Origin: Bryobacteraceae bacterium | Lineage (GTDB): Bacteria; Acidobacteriota; Terriglobia; Bryobacterales; Bryobacteraceae | Reading direction: 5' to 3' | Length of the DNA: 64,000 bases | Assembly (NCBI GenBank): GCA_026002855.1 | Contig: BPGD01000001.1 | Location: forward strand, 3,108,001 to 3,172,000 | In this document: one piece after another, positions 42,622 through 50,201 of the stretch | Layout of the letters: each line of letters opens with the position of its first letter | Position numbering within the stretch: position 1 is the first letter of the stretch | Notes under the pieces: generated by a model | Database searches by the model: none | Seen by the model: the letters and a program-made list of their open reading frames with translations, nothing else | Told to the model about the DNA's origin: nothing | Translations under genes and position numbers: made by a program

Positions 42622-43716
42622 ATGCGCGATTTCAGCCAAGCGCCCTTTCTCGTCATATGGGAGCTGACGCAGGCGTGCGACCTTGCCTGCCGCCACTGCC
42701 GCGCCTCGGCGCAGCCGGCCCGGCATCCTCAGGAGCTGACCACGGCGGAAGCGATGGGGGTGCTTGCACAGATCCGTGCGTTCGGAGATCCGCTGCTGGT
42801 TTTTACCGGCGGTGATCCGCTCAAGCGGGAAGACCTGTTTGACATTCTCACCGCGAGCGTTCGCTCGGGGCTCCGCACGGCGATCACGCCGAGTGCGACA
42901 CCGCTGCTGACACGGGACGCCGTGCGCAGGTTTCGCGACATCGGCATCGCCCGCATGGCGGTGAGCGTCGACGGCGCCGACGAAGAACAGCACGACCGAT
43001 TTCGAGGGGTTGAGGGCAGTTTTCGCATCACGCTGGACGCGCTGCGCGCCGCGCGGGAACTCGGCCTGGAAACCCAGGTGAACACGACGGTGACGCGCCG
43101 CAATCTGCCTTCGCTTGAGCGCATCGCTGAAGTCGTAGCAGAGCATGGCGTGAAGTTGTGGAGCGTGTTTTTCCTGGTTCTCACCGGAAGGGCGCTGCTC
43201 GAAGATGATCTGGAGGCGGAAGAATACGAACAGGTGTTTGAGCGTCTCTTGCGCATTTCTCTTACGGCGCCATTTGACATCAAGACGACCGAGGCCCAGC
43301 ATTACCGCCGCTATCTGGCCCAGCAGAAGAAGCTGGCGCAGCTTCCCACCAAGGTCGGCAACGGACCGGCGTTGCGGCAGGCGGGGATCAACGACGGGAA
43401 GGGATTTCTGTTCATATCCCACACCGGGGAGATTTACCCGTCCGGATTTCTTGAGATATCGGCAGGAAATGTGAGATCGATTTCTCTTGCGCAGGCCTAT
43501 CGCGAGTCCCGGCTTTTCCGGCTGCTGCGGGACGGCGACGCGCTTGGCGGCAAGTGCGGCGCCTGCGAATACCGGAACCTCTGCGGCGGATCCAGGGCGC
43601 GGGCGTGGGCGTTCACCGGAGATTTTCTTGCGCCGGACCCGAGGTGCTCCTATGTGCCGCCGGGCTTCTCCGCGCCCGCATTTCAGCCGCAACCTGCCGT
43701 TGCTCGTCCGCGCTGA
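42622..43716 (+). CDS. Radical SAM/SPASM protein, TIGR04053-like
   Basis: The 364-residue product has the radical SAM cluster motif CDLACRHC (CxxxCxxC, residues 19-26), a glycine-rich SAM site (VFTGGDPL), SVDGADEEQHD and a C-terminal SPASM-type Cys set (CGACEYRNLCGG). It resembles NirJ/AhbD-like and TIGR04053 enzymes, which act on haem precursors or peptides; the exact reaction is unknown. A Crp/Fnr dyad centred at about -41.5 precedes it, pointing to activation by the neighbouring regulator. Its last 104 bases overlap the convergent hemerythrin gene. Confidence 0.88.
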   Translation: MRDFSQAPFLVIWELTQACDLACRHCRASAQPARHPQELTTAEAMGVLAQIRAFGDPLLVFTGGDPLKREDLFDILTASVRSGLRTAITPSATPLLTRDAVRRFRDIGIARMAVSVDGADEEQHDRFRGVEGSFRITLDALRAARELGLETQVNTTVTRRNLPSLERIAEVVAEHGVKLWSVFFLVLTGRALLEDDLEAEEYEQVFERLLRISLTAPFDIKTTEAQHYRRYLAQQKKLAQLPTKVGNGPALRQAGINDGKGFLFISHTGEIYPSGFLEISAGNVRSISLAQAYRESRLFRLLRDGDALGGKCGACEYRNLCGGSRARAWAFTGDFLAPDPRCSYVPPGFSAPAFQPQPAVARPR

Positions 43717-44188
43717 GCTGGCGGCGCACCATCGGGATCAGCGTTTCGTCCTCCCGGGCGATGTGCCGGCGGTAGAGTGCAACGAACTGTTCGGCCAGCG
43801 CTCGCAGCTCCGGCCAGGCCGGTTCGCCGCGCCGGGCCCGTTCCACGCCTTCGCGAAGTCTGGCGGCCAGCCGGTCCGCTTCCACATGGTCGTGTTCGAG
43901 GCCGGCAAGAAAGGTCCACTCGCCCCGCTCCAGGCTTTGGCGCAGGCGCGGAAAGACGCTCTCCTCCTCGTCCTCCGTGTGCAACGCGCCGCTTGTGTCC
44001 AGGAATGCCATCGCCGAGGCGAGCGCGGCCAGCGCCTCTTCAGGTCTGTCGGCCGGCGCCGCGGCCGCGCGCTCGATGGCATCGATGCGTTGCTCGATGC
44101 GGCGGTGGCATGCATACAGAAAATCCGCCGGCTGGTCAGGCGATGCCGGCGCTGTTCTGGCGTGAAACAGGTTTTCTGGCGGGATCAT
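43613..44188 (-). CDS. Hemerythrin (HHE) domain protein
   Basis: The 191-residue four-helix protein has ligand-type residues at the expected spacing: His28 (ACHRRIE), His70 and Glu74 (LHTEDEEESVFP), His99/His101 (LEHDHVEAD), His142 and Glu146 (RRHIAREDE). It should hold a di-iron site that binds O2 or NO. The start is uncertain: GGAG lies only 2 bases before ATG 44188. A perfect Crp/Fnr dyad sits 35 bases upstream, at the stop codon of the corrinoid activator gene. It overlaps the 3' end of the radical SAM gene on the other strand. Confidence 0.88.
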   Translation of the reverse strand: MIPPENLFHARTAPASPDQPADFLYACHRRIEQRIDAIERAAAAPADRPEEALAALASAMAFLDTSGALHTEDEEESVFPRLRQSLERGEWTFLAGLEHDHVEADRLAARLREGVERARRGEPAWPELRALAEQFVALYRRHIAREDETLIPMVRRQLSADEQRQVAAEMRARRSPAAHRSTSGPAQENLR

Positions 44189-44222: not shown

Positions 44223-44236
44223 GTGACTCAGGTCAC
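44223..44236 (-). promoter_or_regulatory. Crp/Fnr box before the hemerythrin gene
   Basis: GTGACTCAGGTCAC, with flanks making CGGTGAC-TCAG-GTCACCG, a perfect 7-bp dyad. It overlaps the stop codon of the corrinoid activator gene (44233) and lies 35 bases before the hemerythrin ATG. A position at -41.5 would imply a nearly leaderless transcript. Confidence 0.65.
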
Positions 44237-45663
44237 CGCAGCCGGTAGGGTTCCAGCCGCATGCTCTCGGCGAAGACGTCCTGAAAAGTCGGATCCGCGG
44301 CGAGTTCCACATGTTCGGTCATAGCGAGGATCCGGCGGATGCGCTGCTGGCGGGACGAGGGCTCCAGCAGCAGCATGCGCGCGCCGCGCAGCGCTGCGTT
44401 GCCGGCGGGTTCCACCTCGACGTCTTCCGGCAGCAGCCCGATGCGCTTCGCGCTGCCGGGATGAAGGTAGTTGCCGAATGCTCCGGCCAGCCGCAGCCGG
44501 ACCGCGTTGCGGGCCAGCAATTTCATTCCCGCGGCCATCGCGCCTTTGGCGAGTTGGAGCTGGCGGATGTCCGACTGCGTGATTTCGATGCCCGGAGCCA
44601 GCGGCAGCGGGTTTTCCTTTAGACGTCCGTCGGGCAGGAGCAGCCCGGCGTCGAGTGCACGGGCCGCGGCGTCCACCAGCCCACTGCCACAGATGCCGCG
44701 TGGCTCGGTGTCCCCGATCACGTGGGGAGCCAGGCGGCCGTTTTCCAGGCGGACGGCATCGATGGCGCCTTCGCAGGCGCGCATGCCATGACGGATGCGG
44801 CCGCCCTCAAAGGCCGGGCCGGCGGCCGTGGATGCGCACCGCAGGGAGCGGCTCCACGCCACGACAATCTCACCATTGGTCCCGATGTCGAACAGCGCCT
44901 GCTGGTTCGCCGCGCGATCCAGGCGGGTGGCCACAACGCCCGCCAGCAGGTCGCTTCCCACGAATCCGCCCAGGCACGGCAGGAAGGTGGTCGGCGCGCG
45001 CCAGGGCATCTCGTCGGGTCCAAAAGACTGCTCGCCCGTATTGGGTGAAAGGAACGGAACGCCGGCCAGCGGCGCTACATCCAGGCCGCAGAACAGGTGG
45101 TGCATGGCTGTATTTCCGACGAGCAGGACTTCCGAAATTCGCCGGCCTGCGGCCAGGCGCCGCAACATCGCGCCGAGCTGATCGCGGATGAGCTGCCGGA
45201 GCTCGCCGGGGTGGCGCAGCTCATGCTGGATGCGGCTCATGACATCCGCGCCGAAGCGCGCCTGCGCGTTCAGCGCTGTTTCAATACCTTCGATTTCGCC
45301 TGTTTCCAGATGGACAAGCTGCGCCACCAGCGTGGTCGTGCCCAGATCGACGGCGACGCCCCACCCGCGGCGCGGCTCCACGGCCGTGCCGGCTTCATCC
45401 GAGAGGACGCGAATCGACCATTGCTCGACCTCCACCGTCACCGGGCCCGATGTTTCAGCCATGCAGGCCAGCCGCCACCCATCAGCGAGCTCGCGCGCGC
45501 TGAGTAGTTGGCGCATCGGCTCCGTGACGGGGATCTTGCCGTCGAGCACGCGCACGCGGCAGCCGCCGCAGATGCCCTCTCCGCCGCAGGGAAACTCCAG
45601 GCCGGCCTCGCGCAACTGTTCGGCCAGGCGCCTGCCGGGCAGGGGGCGCAACGTGAGTTTCAC
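44233..45663 (-). CDS. Corrinoid protein reductive activator (RACo/RamA-like; 2Fe-2S + ASKHA DUF4445)
   Basis: The 476-residue product has an N-terminal 2Fe-2S ferredoxin domain with Cys26, Cys32, Cys35 and Cys67 (FPCGGEGICGGC ... LAC). It then has an ASKHA-type ATPase domain typical of DUF4445, with VAVDLGTTTLVAQL, LLVGNTAMHHLF, FDIGTNGEI and GICGSGLVDAA. Proteins of this type use ATP to drive re-reduction of inactive Co(II) corrinoid to Co(I). Its ATG overlaps the stop of the UroD-type methyltransferase gene (ATGA), and it is the last gene of the corrinoid operon. Its substrate is presumably the corrinoid protein encoded at 48325. Confidence 0.9.
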   Translation of the reverse strand: MKLTLRPLPGRRLAEQLREAGLEFPCGGEGICGGCRVRVLDGKIPVTEPMRQLLSARELADGWRLACMAETSGPVTVEVEQWSIRVLSDEAGTAVEPRRGWGVAVDLGTTTLVAQLVHLETGEIEGIETALNAQARFGADVMSRIQHELRHPGELRQLIRDQLGAMLRRLAAGRRISEVLLVGNTAMHHLFCGLDVAPLAGVPFLSPNTGEQSFGPDEMPWRAPTTFLPCLGGFVGSDLLAGVVATRLDRAANQQALFDIGTNGEIVVAWSRSLRCASTAAGPAFEGGRIRHGMRACEGAIDAVRLENGRLAPHVIGDTEPRGICGSGLVDAAARALDAGLLLPDGRLKENPLPLAPGIEITQSDIRQLQLAKGAMAAGMKLLARNAVRLRLAGAFGNYLHPGSAKRIGLLPEDVEVEPAGNAALRGARMLLLEPSSRQQRIRRILAMTEHVELAADPTFQDVFAESMRLEPYRLR

Positions 45664-46673
45664 AGCCGGCTGCGCGCGAAGCGCGTCATCGCATCCATGT
45701 TCTCATGCGGCGTGCCGCGAGGCACTTCGCACCCTGGTCCAACGATCCACGACGGTGCGGCGGCCTGGTAACAGGCATCCAGCGCGGCCTCGATCCCTTC
45801 CGGCGTTGCATCGCGCAACACGCGGACCGGATCGATGTTGCCGAGCAGCACCTGCGGTTCGGGCATGGCGGCCCGGGCCTCGGCCATCGGCGTCAGAAAA
45901 TCAAGATCGACAATTTCCGCACCGGTTTCGCCCATTCCACGGGCGATTTTGCGCGTATTGCCACAAATGTGAAGCCTGACCGGCGCGCCCGCCTCGTGGA
46001 TGGCGGCCACCAGTTTCTTTTCGTACGGCAGCACAAATCGCTCATACAGCCGCGGGCCCACGAGCGAGGCCGCCGCGTCGCCGATGCCGATCATGGCGGC
46101 GCCGGCTTCGATCTGCGCGCGGGCAAAGGCGGATTCGGCCCGCACGCAGTAGTCAAACAGCGCCTCGACGAAGGGCGCATCGTCGATGAAATCCAGCATC
46201 AGCGTGTTGAGTCCGCGCAGATCCGCCCCCAGCGCGCATGGGCCTTCCACCCAGCCTTCCACCAGCAGTTCGTTGCCGGCCTCGCGCGCGAGCAGCGCCA
46301 CGCCGTCCACCCGGTCCTTCATCCGGCTGCCGGGCGCGAGCGGGTCCGGCAAGGGCAGCCGGGCCAGCCGGCTTTTCTCCTGAAGCAGGGCGCAGCTTTC
46401 GACGATGGCCGGTGGCTGGTCTTCGAACCACTCGATGGTCCCGCCGAGATCGGCGGTCTCGCGGGCCGGATCAGAAATCACGCTCACATGGTCGAAGCCG
46501 AAGCGTCGGGCGGCAGCAAGCTGCGCCTGGACGAGCACGCGGTGGTCGCGGGCGTAGTCGCCGTACCGAACCCGGGCGAAGTCCGCCGCAAACATCATCG
46601 TGATCGGCATCAGGGGCAGGTGGTCGATTGGCTCATGCCGGATCCGGCCCAGGAGCCTTTCCTTTCCCGTCAT
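45660..46673 (-). CDS. UroD/MtaA-type methylcobamide methyltransferase
   Basis: The 337-residue TIM-barrel protein belongs to the uroporphyrinogen decarboxylase superfamily but has the zinc ligands of the methyltransferase branch: His235 and Cys237 (LHICGNT) and Cys315 (GPGCEVPRGTPHENM), as in MtaA, MtbA and CmuA. These move methyl groups between a corrinoid protein and a thiol or a methyl donor. In this operon it may be either the entry enzyme (substrate to corrinoid) or the exit enzyme. ATG 46673 with GGAGG 8 bases upstream is preferred to GTG 46682. It overlaps the activator gene by 4 bases. Confidence 0.88.
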   Translation of the reverse strand: MTGKERLLGRIRHEPIDHLPLMPITMMFAADFARVRYGDYARDHRVLVQAQLAAARRFGFDHVSVISDPARETADLGGTIEWFEDQPPAIVESCALLQEKSRLARLPLPDPLAPGSRMKDRVDGVALLAREAGNELLVEGWVEGPCALGADLRGLNTLMLDFIDDAPFVEALFDYCVRAESAFARAQIEAGAAMIGIGDAAASLVGPRLYERFVLPYEKKLVAAIHEAGAPVRLHICGNTRKIARGMGETGAEIVDLDFLTPMAEARAAMPEPQVLLGNIDPVRVLRDATPEGIEAALDACYQAAAPSWIVGPGCEVPRGTPHENMDAMTRFARSRL

Positions 46674-46703
46674 TGGTGACACCTCCGGCGCAATGCGCGC
46701 TCC

Positions 46704-47450
46704 TCAACCCACGATTTCCCGGACGGTCTCCACGGAAACCACGCGGTCGTCATATGTGGCCCGGATCCGCTCGCCCGGCTGGACGAGCAGGAATTCCCCG
46801 CCGCCCCAGTCGCCGTTGACGAGGCGGCGGAACAACTCCAGGCTGCCGCGGATTTTCTGAAATTCCCAGCCATTTTCGGCCGCTTCCCAGCGGGATTCTT
46901 CTTCAAAACGGCGGTCGGATTCAAGGCCGGTTTCGATGTAGACGAGCCGCTGGTAATTCTGGCGGTAGCAGGTCAATTCCTCATATAAATAGCGGCCGTT
47001 TTCTTCGCCATATTTTGCGACAAGCTCCTCCAGTGTGGCGTCAAGGCCGGCGGTTGCGTGGGTCAGTTGGCGGAGCCCCTTGCCGCGTTCAAGCCAGCCG
47101 GTGGAGCGGTAGAGCGTTCCCGGGTGCTCCTCAAAGAACTGCTGGTAGCGCTGGCGCCCGCCCATGAGCAGCGCGATGCAATCATGCGCGCGCGGCAGCA
47201 CGAGCATCGTGTGGCGCGCCTCGATGCCGTCGAGTCCGTTGCCGCACAGTCCATAGCCGAGCAGAATGGCGTCATAGGCGCCGCGGGGCACGGCGTCGAT
47301 CCTTTCCTGGACGAGCGCGGACATCCTCTTGCCGCCGAGGTCGTGCCATCCCTTGGGGAGAAACGCGGCGTCGACAAGGTGCGGCGACCGCGCCACCGCG
47401 TCGCACATCTCACGGTAAAGGACCTCGCAACTGATCAGGCGCAGTTTCAC
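46704..47450 (-). CDS. DUF1638-family protein
   Basis: The 248-residue product contains ISCEVLYREM, LLGYGLCGNGLDGI, LPRAHDCIALLMGGR and YRQNYQRLVYIETGL, which mark DUF1638. This family is repeatedly encoded beside corrinoid proteins and methyltransferases of methylamine-type systems, but its biochemical role is undefined. Conserved Cys and His residues (CGN, HDC) hint at a metal or corrinoid contact. Start GTG 47450 overlaps the stop of the homocysteine methyltransferase-like gene (GTGA), with GGGAGG upstream. It lies 30 bases before the UroD-type gene. Confidence 0.85.
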   Translation of the reverse strand: MKLRLISCEVLYREMCDAVARSPHLVDAAFLPKGWHDLGGKRMSALVQERIDAVPRGAYDAILLGYGLCGNGLDGIEARHTMLVLPRAHDCIALLMGGRQRYQQFFEEHPGTLYRSTGWLERGKGLRQLTHATAGLDATLEELVAKYGEENGRYLYEELTCYRQNYQRLVYIETGLESDRRFEEESRWEAAENGWEFQKIRGSLELFRRLVNGDWGGGEFLLVQPGERIRATYDDRVVSVETVREIVG

Positions 47451-48319
47451 AAAGCCTCCCGGGCGGCCGCCAGAGCGCGAACGAAATCGGGCGTCGTGCC
47501 GCAGCAACCGCCGACAAATGCGGCGCCGGCTTCGACCAGTGGAGCCAGGTGCGCGGCGAACTGTTCAGGCGATCCGAGATAAACTGCGCGACCGTCGCGC
47601 CACGCAGGCAGGCCGGCGTTGGGCTTGATCCAGACGGGCAGCCCGCTGGCCGCCTTCAGCCGTGCGCAGAGCGGCACGAAGCGCTCGATGCCTGCGCCGC
47701 AGTTGGCTCCGACCGCATCCACGCCAACGGCGCGCATCTCTGCCGCGGCCATCTCCGGCGTCACGCCCATCATCGTGCGGTCGCGGTTCCGGCCCGTGTC
47801 AAACGCGAACGACACGATGACGGGCAGCCCGGTGGCGAGTGCCGCCCGCGCTGCGATTCGCGCCTCCCCCAGATCGCTCATCGTCTCCACGAGCAGGGCA
47901 TCCGGGCCCGCCTGGGCCAGCGATTCGGCCTGTTCGGTGAAGGCGCGATCCAGATCTTCCGCGCTGACTTCGCCGTTGATCAACATCTTGCCGGAGGGGC
48001 CGATGGAGGCAAACACGAGTGCGCGGCCGGCGGCGGCGCGGCGGCTGATCTCGACACCTGCCCGATTGATCCCGCCAACCTCTCCGGCCAGCCCGGCCTC
48101 AGCCAGTGCGATGCGGTTCGCGCGGAACGTGTTCGTGAGGATGACTTCGCTGCCGGCCTCCACATATTCGCGCGCCACCTGGAGGACCAGCTCGGGACGC
48201 GCCAGGTTCCATGCGTCCGGCAGCGCGCCCGGCTCGAGGCCAAGCGCCTGAAGGCGCGTGCCCCAGGCGCCGTCGGTGATCACCACCCCGCGGCCCGTCC
48301 ATGGATCCAGTGGCGGCAT
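47447..48319 (-). CDS. Homocysteine S-methyltransferase-like protein
   Basis: The 290-residue barrel has the zinc-binding cysteines of the homocysteine/betaine methyltransferase family: Cys207 (GANCGAG) and Cys272-Cys273 (GGCCGTT), along with TDGAWGTRL and TNTFRAN near the N-terminus. It matches the first (homocysteine) domain of MetH as a stand-alone protein. It could pass a methyl group from the corrinoid protein to homocysteine to make methionine, or act on another thiol. It follows the corrinoid protein gene by 5 bases and overlaps DUF1638 by 4 bases. Confidence 0.9.
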   Translation of the reverse strand: MPPLDPWTGRGVVITDGAWGTRLQALGLEPGALPDAWNLARPELVLQVAREYVEAGSEVILTNTFRANRIALAEAGLAGEVGGINRAGVEISRRAAAGRALVFASIGPSGKMLINGEVSAEDLDRAFTEQAESLAQAGPDALLVETMSDLGEARIAARAALATGLPVIVSFAFDTGRNRDRTMMGVTPEMAAAEMRAVGVDAVGANCGAGIERFVPLCARLKAASGLPVWIKPNAGLPAWRDGRAVYLGSPEQFAAHLAPLVEAGAAFVGGCCGTTPDFVRALAAAREAL

Positions 48320-48324
48320 GGCGG

Positions 48325-48969
48325 CTATTGCCGGGCGGCCTGAACGAACTGCCGGGCCAGGGCCACCGCGGCGGTGGCATTTTCGCCGTAGCCGTCGGCG
48401 CCGATTTCGCGGGCGAACTGCGGAGTGACCGGCGCGCCGCCGACCATCACCTTGACGCTCTCCCGCAGCCCGGCTTTTTCGAAAGCCTCGATGGTGCGCC
48501 GCATCGACGGCATCGTCACCGTGAGCAGGGCGGAAAGCGCAACAATTGAGGCCCGCTTTTCCTGGACCGCTTCAACGAACCTTTCGGGAGCAACATCAGC
48601 GCCCAGGTCGATCACCTCGAAGCCGCCGCCTTCGAGCATCGACGCAACCAGATTCTTGCCGATATCATGAAGGTCGCCCTTCACCGTGCCAATGACGACG
48701 CGGCCCGCGGGTTGAGCGCCGCTAGCCGCCAGCAGCGGGCGCAGCAGCTCGAGCGCGCCTTTCATCGCGCGCGCCGAAAGCAGCAGTTCGGGCACGAAAT
48801 ACTCTTCGCACTCGAAGCGCCTGCCGACCTCGTCCATCGCGGGGACCATGGATTTCGTGATCAGCTCCATCGGGTCGCAGCCCTCGTCCAGGGCCTCTTT
48901 CGTCACGGCCACCGCAGTTTTCTGGTCGCCGTTGAGCACTGCGTCATACAGCCTGTGAAGATCAGCCAT
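48325..48969 (-). CDS. Cobalamin-binding methyltransferase corrinoid protein (MtbC/MtaC-like)
   Basis: The 214-residue product has an N-terminal four-helix cap domain (1-88) and a C-terminal Rossmann B12-binding domain with GDLHDIGKNLV, where His101 is the lower cobalt ligand. LSALLTVTM and VGGAPVTPQFAREIGADGYGEN complete the B12 signature. It carries the methyl group between partner enzymes. ATG 48969 has GAGGAG 6 bases upstream; the TTG at 48975 is not needed. It is the first gene of a five-gene operon with a sigma70-like promoter just upstream (49015-49043). Confidence 0.93.
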   Translation of the reverse strand: MADLHRLYDAVLNGDQKTAVAVTKEALDEGCDPMELITKSMVPAMDEVGRRFECEEYFVPELLLSARAMKGALELLRPLLAASGAQPAGRVVIGTVKGDLHDIGKNLVASMLEGGGFEVIDLGADVAPERFVEAVQEKRASIVALSALLTVTMPSMRRTIEAFEKAGLRESVKVMVGGAPVTPQFAREIGADGYGENATAAVALARQFVQAARQ

Positions 48970-49049: not shown

Positions 49050-50201
49050 TTACAGCGCTTCGCGCAGCACGCGGGCGAGCTCTTCTTCACTCAGCGCCAC
49101 CGGATTGCCCTTCATGCTGCTCGATCGCGCCGCCTTCCTGCACAGCTCCGGGATGTGTTCCTCGCGGATGCCGTATGCGGACAGCCGCGGGATTTCGAGC
49201 TCCTGCCGGATCCCATCCAGCCACACGGCCAGCTCATCGGCCTCCGCCTGCGGCCCGCACAGGATGCGTGCGGCTTCATCGTAGCGGGCCAGCGCAGGAC
49301 TCCCTGGGGCGCGCTCGCGCAGCGCCCTGAGGTTGGCGCGCGTCACCGGGGCCAGGAGGGCCGCACAGACGGCGCCGTGCGGGGCAGGGAATGAACCGCC
49401 GACCGGCGCCGCAAATCCGTGCACTGCGCCGAGGCCGGCGTTGGCCAGCGCCATGCCGCTCAAAAGGCTTGCCAGGGCCATGTCCGTGCGCGCCCCCAGA
49501 TCGTCGCCGTCGTGGAAGGCGCGCTGAAGCGAACGGCCGGCGCGGCACAGTCCCTCGCGGCAGAACATGTCGGTCATGGGATTGGCGCGGACGCTGACGA
49601 ACGGTTCGAGCAGTTGGGCCAGTGCGTCCAGGCCCGTTGCAGCGGTGACGGCAGGAGGCGCAGTCAGCGTCAGCTCAGGGTCGACGACGGCGAGTTTCGC
49701 AAGCATCAGCGGGCTGCGCAGGCTTGCTTTGACGCCGTGTTGGGGCGAATGGAGCACGGCGTTGCGCGTGGCCTCGCTGCCGGTGCCGGAGGTGGTCGGC
49801 ACGGCGATGAAAGGCACAGGGGCGTGCGCAAGCGGCTGCCCGCCACCGATCACTTCCAGGTAGTCGAGCACATCGCCGGGGTTGGCCAGCATGGCGGCGA
49901 TGGCCTTGCCGGCATCCAGCGCACTGCCTCCGCCGCAGGCGATCACGAGGTCGCACCCTTCCCGGCGGGCCGTCTCCGCTCCGGTGCGCACGGTGTCGAG
50001 CGTGGGTTCGCCGTCGGTGGGAAAGGGCGTGCAGCCGACGCCCGCCTTGTGCAGGTCCGCCACCAGGCGCGCCGCATGGCGGGGGTTGCGCCCGGTGACC
50101 AGCAAAGCGCGCTTGCCAAAGCCGCGCGCCGCCGGCGCGATCTCGCGCGCCGCGCCCGGGCCAAAGACGATGCGCTGCGCGGTGGCGAATTCCCACGTCA
50201 T
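49050..50201 (-). CDS. Iron-containing alcohol dehydrogenase
   Basis: The 383-residue product belongs to the group III alcohol dehydrogenases: NAD-site GGGSALDAGKAIA, VPTTSGTGSEATRNAV, and metal ligands in GLDALAQLLEPF, AVHGFAAPVGG and PAPHGAVCAALL. It interconverts an alcohol and an aldehyde or ketone with NAD(P). Lying 4 bases after the monooxygenase-like gene and 80 bases before the corrinoid operon, it could oxidise an alcohol or aldehyde produced by demethylation, but that link is only positional. Confidence 0.92.
   Translation of the reverse strand: MTWEFATAQRIVFGPGAAREIAPAARGFGKRALLVTGRNPRHAARLVADLHKAGVGCTPFPTDGEPTLDTVRTGAETARREGCDLVIACGGGSALDAGKAIAAMLANPGDVLDYLEVIGGGQPLAHAPVPFIAVPTTSGTGSEATRNAVLHSPQHGVKASLRSPLMLAKLAVVDPELTLTAPPAVTAATGLDALAQLLEPFVSVRANPMTDMFCREGLCRAGRSLQRAFHDGDDLGARTDMALASLLSGMALANAGLGAVHGFAAPVGGSFPAPHGAVCAALLAPVTRANLRALRERAPGSPALARYDEAARILCGPQAEADELAVWLDGIRQELEIPRLSAYGIREEHIPELCRKAARSSSMKGNPVALSEEELARVLREAL

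Follow-up and report, generated by a model that had tools for sequence, protein, structure and literature searches.

Which enzyme loads the corrinoid protein of a methyl-transfer operon that carries no recognisable entry enzyme of the usual kinds, and where does the methyl group go? The question is raised by five closely packed genes on the minus strand (48969-44233) of a stretch of 64,000 nucleotides from a Bryobacteraceae bacterium, hereafter the window (G000:C1:3108001-3172000; G000 is the window genome, 4.44 Mb in one contig, and other G and L numbers denote compared genomes and loci). The genes encode, in this order, a corrinoid protein (CP), a homocysteine S-methyltransferase (HMT), a DUF1638 protein, a UroD-superfamily protein (UROD) and a RACo-type activator. 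The best explanation, to which a probability of about 0.47 is assigned, i.e., slightly less than an even chance, is a corrinoid methyl-transfer module in which a methyl group would pass from a donor via a UroD enzyme to CP and then to homocysteine. The features of the operon are as follows.

48325..48969, minus strand: CP, corrinoid (B12-binding) protein, methyl carrier, MtgC/MtbC-like (PF02607, PF02310)
47447..48319, minus strand: HMT, homocysteine S-methyltransferase of the MetH-domain/MtgE type (PF02574)
46704..47450, minus strand: DUF1638 protein, given from its conserved start; the open frame reaches 47507 (PF07796)
45660..46682, minus strand: UROD, UroD-superfamily methyltransferase with a His-Cys-Cys motif; conserved start 46673 (PF01208)
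44233..45663, minus strand: RACo/RamA-type ATP-dependent corrinoid reductive activator with a 2Fe-2S domain (PF14574, PF17651, Fer2)

All five genes exceed the cut-offs of the Pfam families listed above, which confirms the five-gene corrinoid methyl-transfer operon that an earlier note, made from the sequence alone, had placed here. By gene coordinates, CP and HMT are separated by 5 bp, DUF1638 and UROD by 21 bp, and UROD and RACo overlap by 4 bp; HMT and DUF1638 overlap by 4 bp if the conserved start at 47450 is used, and by 61 bp if the longest open frame, starting at 47507, is taken. A comparison of the window with loci L082, L083 and L084 gave ratios of nonsynonymous to synonymous substitution rates (dN/dS) of 0.04-0.21 across the five genes.

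The methyl carrier and the homocysteine enzyme are clearly recognisable. CP scores 94 bits on PF02607 and 113 bits on PF02310, and the B12-binding His101 named in the earlier note lies within the motif DLHDIG at residues 99-104, so the B12 motif has not been lost; the dN/dS of this gene is 0.04-0.07. Its scores on TIGR02370 (206.5 bits, cut-off 215.3) and on the MtgC model (204.4 bits, cut-off 370) remain below the cut-offs. HMT scores 224 bits on PF02574, and its zinc cysteine motifs, GANC and GGCCG, are intact. The closest solved chain, with 170 bits, is the methyl-folate:homocysteine methyltransferase 1q7m, which we take to be T. maritima MetH. Betaine-homocysteine methyltransferase (BHMT) activity was set aside on scores, since the best BHMT chain (1lt7) reached 60 bits and the betaine-homocysteine model PRK07534 gave 209.9 bits against a cut-off of 338. 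The C-x5-C-x2-C motif is present in RACo.

UROD scores 200.6 bits on PF01208, and does not reach the NCBIfam thresholds of MtaA, MtbA and MtaA/CmuA (150.7 bits on TIGR01463, the MtaA/CmuA model, cut-off 235.4; 137.9 bits on NF041608, cut-off 600). A profile search found the best solved match in 4ay7, the methylcobalamin:coenzyme M methyltransferase of M. mazei, ahead of uroporphyrinogen decarboxylases and CdmB. UROD thus resembles MtaA and MtbA in its best solved match and in having the same H-x-C...C pattern, and differs from them in the sub-threshold family scores and in the lack of a methanogenesis context. The His-Cys-Cys zinc motif (H238-x-C240 ... C318) is conserved in 79 of 79 aligned sequences, comprising the window protein and 78 of 79 translated loci (L109 was excluded, as its frame ran on). 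The accessible text of Kountz and Balskus (PMC10418091) links this motif to S- or Se-methyltransferases, which argues for a thioether or selenoether as the donor. The methylamines, methanol, betaines and aryl ethers to which the earlier note had pointed from family knowledge fit this motif poorly, since that text ties it to S/Se substrates and not to O- or N-methyl groups.

Apparent fusions of UROD with HMT (L115), CP (L136) and DUF1638 (L119) proved to be out-of-frame extensions of open frames, and a search of plasmids for UROD relatives gave five records, the best with 30.5% identity. In L124, L142, L150 and L160, a long protein that by eye resembles a PAS-type sensor begins between 4 bases inside and 4 bases past the UROD stop codon.

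The DUF1638 protein scores 120 bits on PF07796, and C8, H36, D37, C69, H89, D90 and C91 are invariant in 34 sequences. Its predicted structure is confident (pLDDT 86.8); in this model C8, C69 and C91 are located at or shortly after predicted strand ends, as might be expected of residues that bind a metal or cofactor. No PDB chain matched the model by fold at E<=0.001, and the profile search gave a single PDB sequence match with E 0.56.

The distribution of the module was studied in two sets, which share contigs (L083/L047, L102/L053, L134/L063, paired by their length) and are not independent. A scan of named genomes for UROD relatives yielded 401 sequences, of which the best 80 loci were kept; as these were found with UROD, the counts of partners are biased towards it. 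The loci belong to Acidobacteriota (many of them Bryobacterales/Bryobacteraceae), Planctomycetota, Verrucomicrobiota, Hydrogenedentota and a few others. The comparison of operon content across related genomes that the earlier note proposed found the complete set of five in 26 of the 80 loci, among them L114 from Aquisphaera insulae JC669, with UROD not always in the module; the operon of L083 is 73-87% identical to that of the window. The second set comprises 61 family genomes, 25 of which are counted as UROD genomes: 28 matched at E<=1e-20, less G016, G042 and G052, where identity was 27-31%. The best match in each of the 25 has at least 56% identity, the gene being partial in G017 and containing an in-frame stop in G045. 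DUF1638 was found in 28 of the 61 genomes. Both genes occur in 23 genomes, UROD only in 2, DUF1638 only in 5 and neither in 31 (Fisher p 8e-10, a value overstated because the genomes are related).

Many relatives possess what appears to be missing from the window. A second UroD-family protein of approximately 420 residues, here called F6, is encoded in 23 of the 80 loci, 17 of which also have all five operon genes; in 12 loci its gene immediately precedes that of CP in the same orientation, in 8 it is just upstream but divergent (the copy in L148, one of these, has only 27% identity), and in the remaining 3 it is located elsewhere. At the positions of the His-Cys-Cys motif of UROD, F6 has His in 20 of 20, Cys in 18 of 20 and His in 19 of 20 sequences, i.e., His-Cys-His. 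The F6 profile found no match among PDB sequences up to E 0.1, and the predicted fold of F6 matches uroporphyrinogen decarboxylases and 4ay7/4ay8. Some loci encode a third UroD protein, F15, with H-x-C-G and G-S-E-C in the five sequences inspected. The 25 UROD genomes account for 92 of the 97 strong F6-family matches (F6 profile, E<=1e-30, one per contig, some being pieces of split genes) found in the family genomes (median 4 versus 0), with up to seven in one genome. F6, sometimes together with F15, is likely the entry enzyme in most relatives.

No strong F6-family match was found in the whole genome of G000; G010 has three such matches, but without an F6 ortholog. In the genus-mate G044, F6 and F15 are encoded at a site unlinked to the operon, among neighbours that by eye are rhamnosidase-, nitroreductase- and transporter-like. 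G000 retains both flanks of this site (74-81% identity), which there enclose 5.8 kb of different genes, and a loss of F6 in G000 is the simpler reading, though not proved. The earlier note was right about G000 in that the entry enzyme is missing, with no match to PF06253 (MttB) in the whole genome, MtaB not having been searched; since relatives carry F6, the absence is a feature of G000 and not of the system.

Other candidates in the window genome are few. There are four matches to PF01208: UROD, a HemE-like protein (413.9 bits) and, at L015 and L016, two divergent proteins. The F6 profile gave no match to the former divergent protein and 31.7 bits for the latter, in which by eye no H-x-C is present at the F6 position, and both were rejected as entry enzymes. 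At L016:6753-9229, an RraA-like gene comes after the divergent UroD-family gene; RraA-like genes also adjoin F6-family genes in L278, L279 and L286. The three matches to PF02574 are MetH, a bifunctional HMT/MTHFR and the HMT of the operon. PF00809 likewise matches three proteins: MetH, one of the DHPS type (149.5 bits on TIGR01496, cut-off 162.6) and one that by eye is FolP-like. No stand-alone methyl-folate:corrinoid protein (MtgD-type, pterin methyltransferase II) was recognised among these three PF00809 matches, and in comparison with the three-component demethylases, composed of methyltransferase I (MT I), corrinoid protein and methyltransferase II (MT II), G000 lacks an MttB-type MT I and a recognisable pterin-type MT II. 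UROD is the sole system-linked candidate found in G000 for loading CP, and, as F6 is absent, it becomes the donor-side enzyme by elimination.

We infer in which direction the methyl group moves, that the thiol is homocysteine, which UroD enzyme loads CP, and all substrates. The Co(I) of CP would be methylated by a UroD-family methyltransferase at the expense of a small donor; HMT would pass the methyl group from methyl-Co(III) to zinc-bound homocysteine, yielding methionine; RACo, using ATP and its 2Fe-2S domain, would rescue the corrinoid after oxidation to Co(II); and the DUF1638 protein may help RACo or the maturation of CP. In G000, UROD itself would act on the donor side, on a thioether, thiol or selenoether, and in relatives F6 and F15 might add further donors, perhaps O-methyl sugars.

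The conserved zinc motif also raises a more specific possibility, namely salvage of methyl-sulfur or methyl-selenium compounds, in which UROD would strip the methyl group from a thioether or selenoether and the path would end in methionine. The accessible text of PMC10418091 describes UroD-based clusters without a folate enzyme, the type I mlp gene clusters, for which methyl-selenide or methionine salvage was proposed; according to the same text they are known from obligate anaerobes only. They share with the window operon a UroD-family His-Cys-Cys enzyme, a corrinoid protein, a RACo/RamA-type activator and the absence of a folate methyltransferase from the cluster, and differ, as far as that text goes, in having at least two UroD proteins (Mlp2 and Mlp3) against one here, and in the HMT and DUF1638 genes present here. 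The position of UROD as the only system-linked donor candidate in G000 is in favour of such salvage, as is a SelD encoded in the genome (C1:2807112-2808017, L316), whose gene contains one in-frame TGA. However, SelD does not track UROD, being found in 23 of the 25 UROD genomes and 29 of the 36 others, and mtnA of the ordinary methionine salvage route is encoded in the genome as well. Altogether, this explanation is considered unlikely. As an observation in its own right, an in-frame TGA is present in 43 of the 52 SelD matches from family genomes, which suggests that SelD itself is a selenoprotein in these genomes.

A precedent for the homocysteine branch is provided by split methionine synthases, in which, according to the accessible parts of PMC5764234 and PMC12478193, a folate subunit loads the corrinoid protein. 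In Phaeobacter inhibens, RamA-like and DUF1638 proteins were shown to take part in the split methionine synthase (Price et al. 2018, PMC5764234), the latter being given no specific role in the text available, and a 2025 PNAS paper (PMC12478193) extended the split system to MtgBCDE of Ruegeria pomeroyi. The window operon resembles these systems, as described there, in the separate corrinoid protein and homocysteine enzyme, the DUF1638 protein and the RamA-like activator; unlike them, it has no recognised pterin subunit and no MttB-type MtgB, it has a UroD-type methyltransferase, and the genome encodes a complete MetH too. By analogy, the helper pair of DUF1638 and RamA-like proteins, shared with a genetically tested split methionine synthase, would speak for methyl transfer from a UroD enzyme through CP to homocysteine. 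The earlier note rightly saw HMT where a coenzyme M or tetrahydrofolate enzyme would be expected, but a homocysteine acceptor is not an undescribed variant, being known from the split synthases in the texts just cited. A homocysteine acceptor with DUF1638 and RamA-like helpers is already known, and what is new is that no folate subunit is recognised and UroD-type enzymes are present instead.

The same homology admits another explanation, an auxiliary methionine synthase: CP, HMT, DUF1638 and RACo would use methyl-folate, with a pterin domain acting in trans, and UROD would be an add-on with its own role. It agrees with the drafts G003 and G037, which have CP, HMT and DUF1638 but no UROD ortholog, and with the many loci where UROD lies apart from the module. 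The absence of a recognised MtgD-type protein among the PF00809 matches of G000, the completeness of the genomic MetH, which has pterin and B12 domains and its own activation domain, and the co-occurrence of UROD and DUF1638 in 23 of the 30 genomes with either gene make it quite improbable.

Several of these observations weigh against the preferred route from donor through UROD and CP to homocysteine as well. In 34 of the 80 UROD loci, some on short contigs, the stretch examined contains none of CP, HMT, DUF1638, RACo or F6. Beside the two drafts just mentioned, the draft G048 has F6, DUF1638 and RACo in a row and no UROD ortholog, UROD is separate from the operon pieces in G002, G025, G033, G045, G056 and G060, and in G023 DUF1638 adjoins CP and RACo with a pterin-type match, so DUF1638 is not tied to UROD; the genomes that lack UROD or have it apart are drafts, mostly more than 90% complete. 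UROD is not essential to the module. Methionine supply need not depend on the operon, since the full MetH and the bifunctional HMT/MTHFR are present. The dN/dS values are averages over lineages, including L083 (= G044), which has F6, and selection after F6 became absent is not proved by them. The weakest step of the proposed mechanism is UROD: it resembles the coenzyme M methyltransferases, which in methanogens act on the acceptor side, and, since its closest solved relative does so, it may instead hand methyl groups to a different thiol.

An acceptor-side UROD is part of a further explanation, in which the system is a hub for O-demethylation of methylated sugars or sugar acids: the methyl of a sugar methoxy group would be removed by F6 and its paralogues and carried by CP, HMT and UROD would both work on the acceptor side, and G000 would hold a remnant without the main entry enzymes. 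The His-Cys-His residues of F6, at the positions where UROD has His-Cys-Cys, are compatible with it, and the surroundings of F6 point the same way. Four different contigs (L053=L102, L063=L134, L106, L117) have a sugar-porter gene (TIGR00879, over cut-off) within the operon; directly next to F6 in L051 and L054 stand a fucokinase/fucose-1-phosphate guanylyltransferase gene (over cut-off) and a GntP-permease frame; in L100, F6 and HMT are adjoined by genes resembling those of an acid-sugar dehydratase and a galactonate transporter (the two scoring under the NCBIfam cut-off); and the F6 copy of L278 adjoins UxuA-like, transporter-like, RraA-like and alpha-L-rhamnosidase genes.

As the idea came from these loci, 20 further F6-family loci were scanned with Pfam, covering 109 of 110 near genes (one to three genes away; one gene of more than 1200 residues was left out) and 76 of 76 far genes, with automatic gene calls and the top 25 families only. 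Recurrent families near F6 were MR_MLE and GFO/IDH/MocA (3 each) and alpha-L-fucosidase, ThuA, AP_endonuc_2, AXE1 and GH42M (2 each); among far genes, sulfatase/SGSH_C had 2 of 76, with single matches to aldose epimerase, sugar-binding, DUF4838 and glycoamylase families. However, two or three genes per family among 109 are few, non-sugar families also occur twice each, and the genomes look rich in sugar genes generally. F6 neighbourhoods thus lean towards sugar genes, as judged from gene content, which is not proof. With F6 absent from G000 and no precedent found in the open-licence literature, a sugar O-demethylation hub is somewhat unlikely. A similarly guarded view is taken of its broader form, in which a whole set of UroD-type entry enzymes would feed a shared CP, methyl groups of plant or microbial sugars or uronic acids would leave on homocysteine rather than folate, and G000 would have kept a stripped-down core; such a hub would operate in Acidobacteriota and probably in some members of the Planctomycetota and Verrucomicrobiota.

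UroD-type MT I enzymes are known in MtoB, MtvB, OdmB, VdmB and CdmB, whose systems, in the accessible text of PMC13222342, combine a UroD-fold entry enzyme with a corrinoid protein and an activator, as here; unlike the window operon, they have a separate MT II to folate, and UROD is nearer to 4ay7 than to CdmB by profile. The present combination of genes was not found described in the open-licence literature. It ties DUF1638 and a UroD branch to a module conserved in Acidobacteriota and, in parts, in other phyla. Should methylated sugars prove to be the substrates of the entry enzymes, methyl groups would be removed from sugars without oxygenases, and B12 and methionine synthesis would be joined to polysaccharide breakdown. 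G000, a natural core minus the usual entry enzyme, lends itself well to testing. In L078 and L079, from two family genomes, there is a corrinoid operon of a more ordinary kind, consisting of a UroD-type protein, a corrinoid protein and RACo; in L078 a PF00809 protein adjoins RACo.

Two genes on the same strand flank the operon.

49050..50201, minus strand: iron-containing alcohol dehydrogenase, possible first gene of the transcript (PF00465, PF25137)
43613..44188, minus strand: hemerythrin-domain protein, 44 bp downstream of RACo (PF01814)

The stop codon of the alcohol dehydrogenase gene lies 80 bp upstream of CP. A sigma-70-type scan found no site in these 80 bp, although such scans miss other promoter types, and a promoter of the operon's own, assumed in the earlier note, is unsupported. 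Rfam searches found no family at gathering score anywhere in the window. The adjacency of the dehydrogenase, repeated in the closest relative, L082, is its sole link to the operon, and homologues occur in 2 of the 80 related loci. It is uncertain whether the hemerythrin gene, with homologues in 5 of the 80 loci, is part of the system. Below the operon, a TIGR04053 radical-SAM gene on the plus strand (42622-43716) is convergent with the hemerythrin gene, and homologues of it are found in 6 of the 80 loci.

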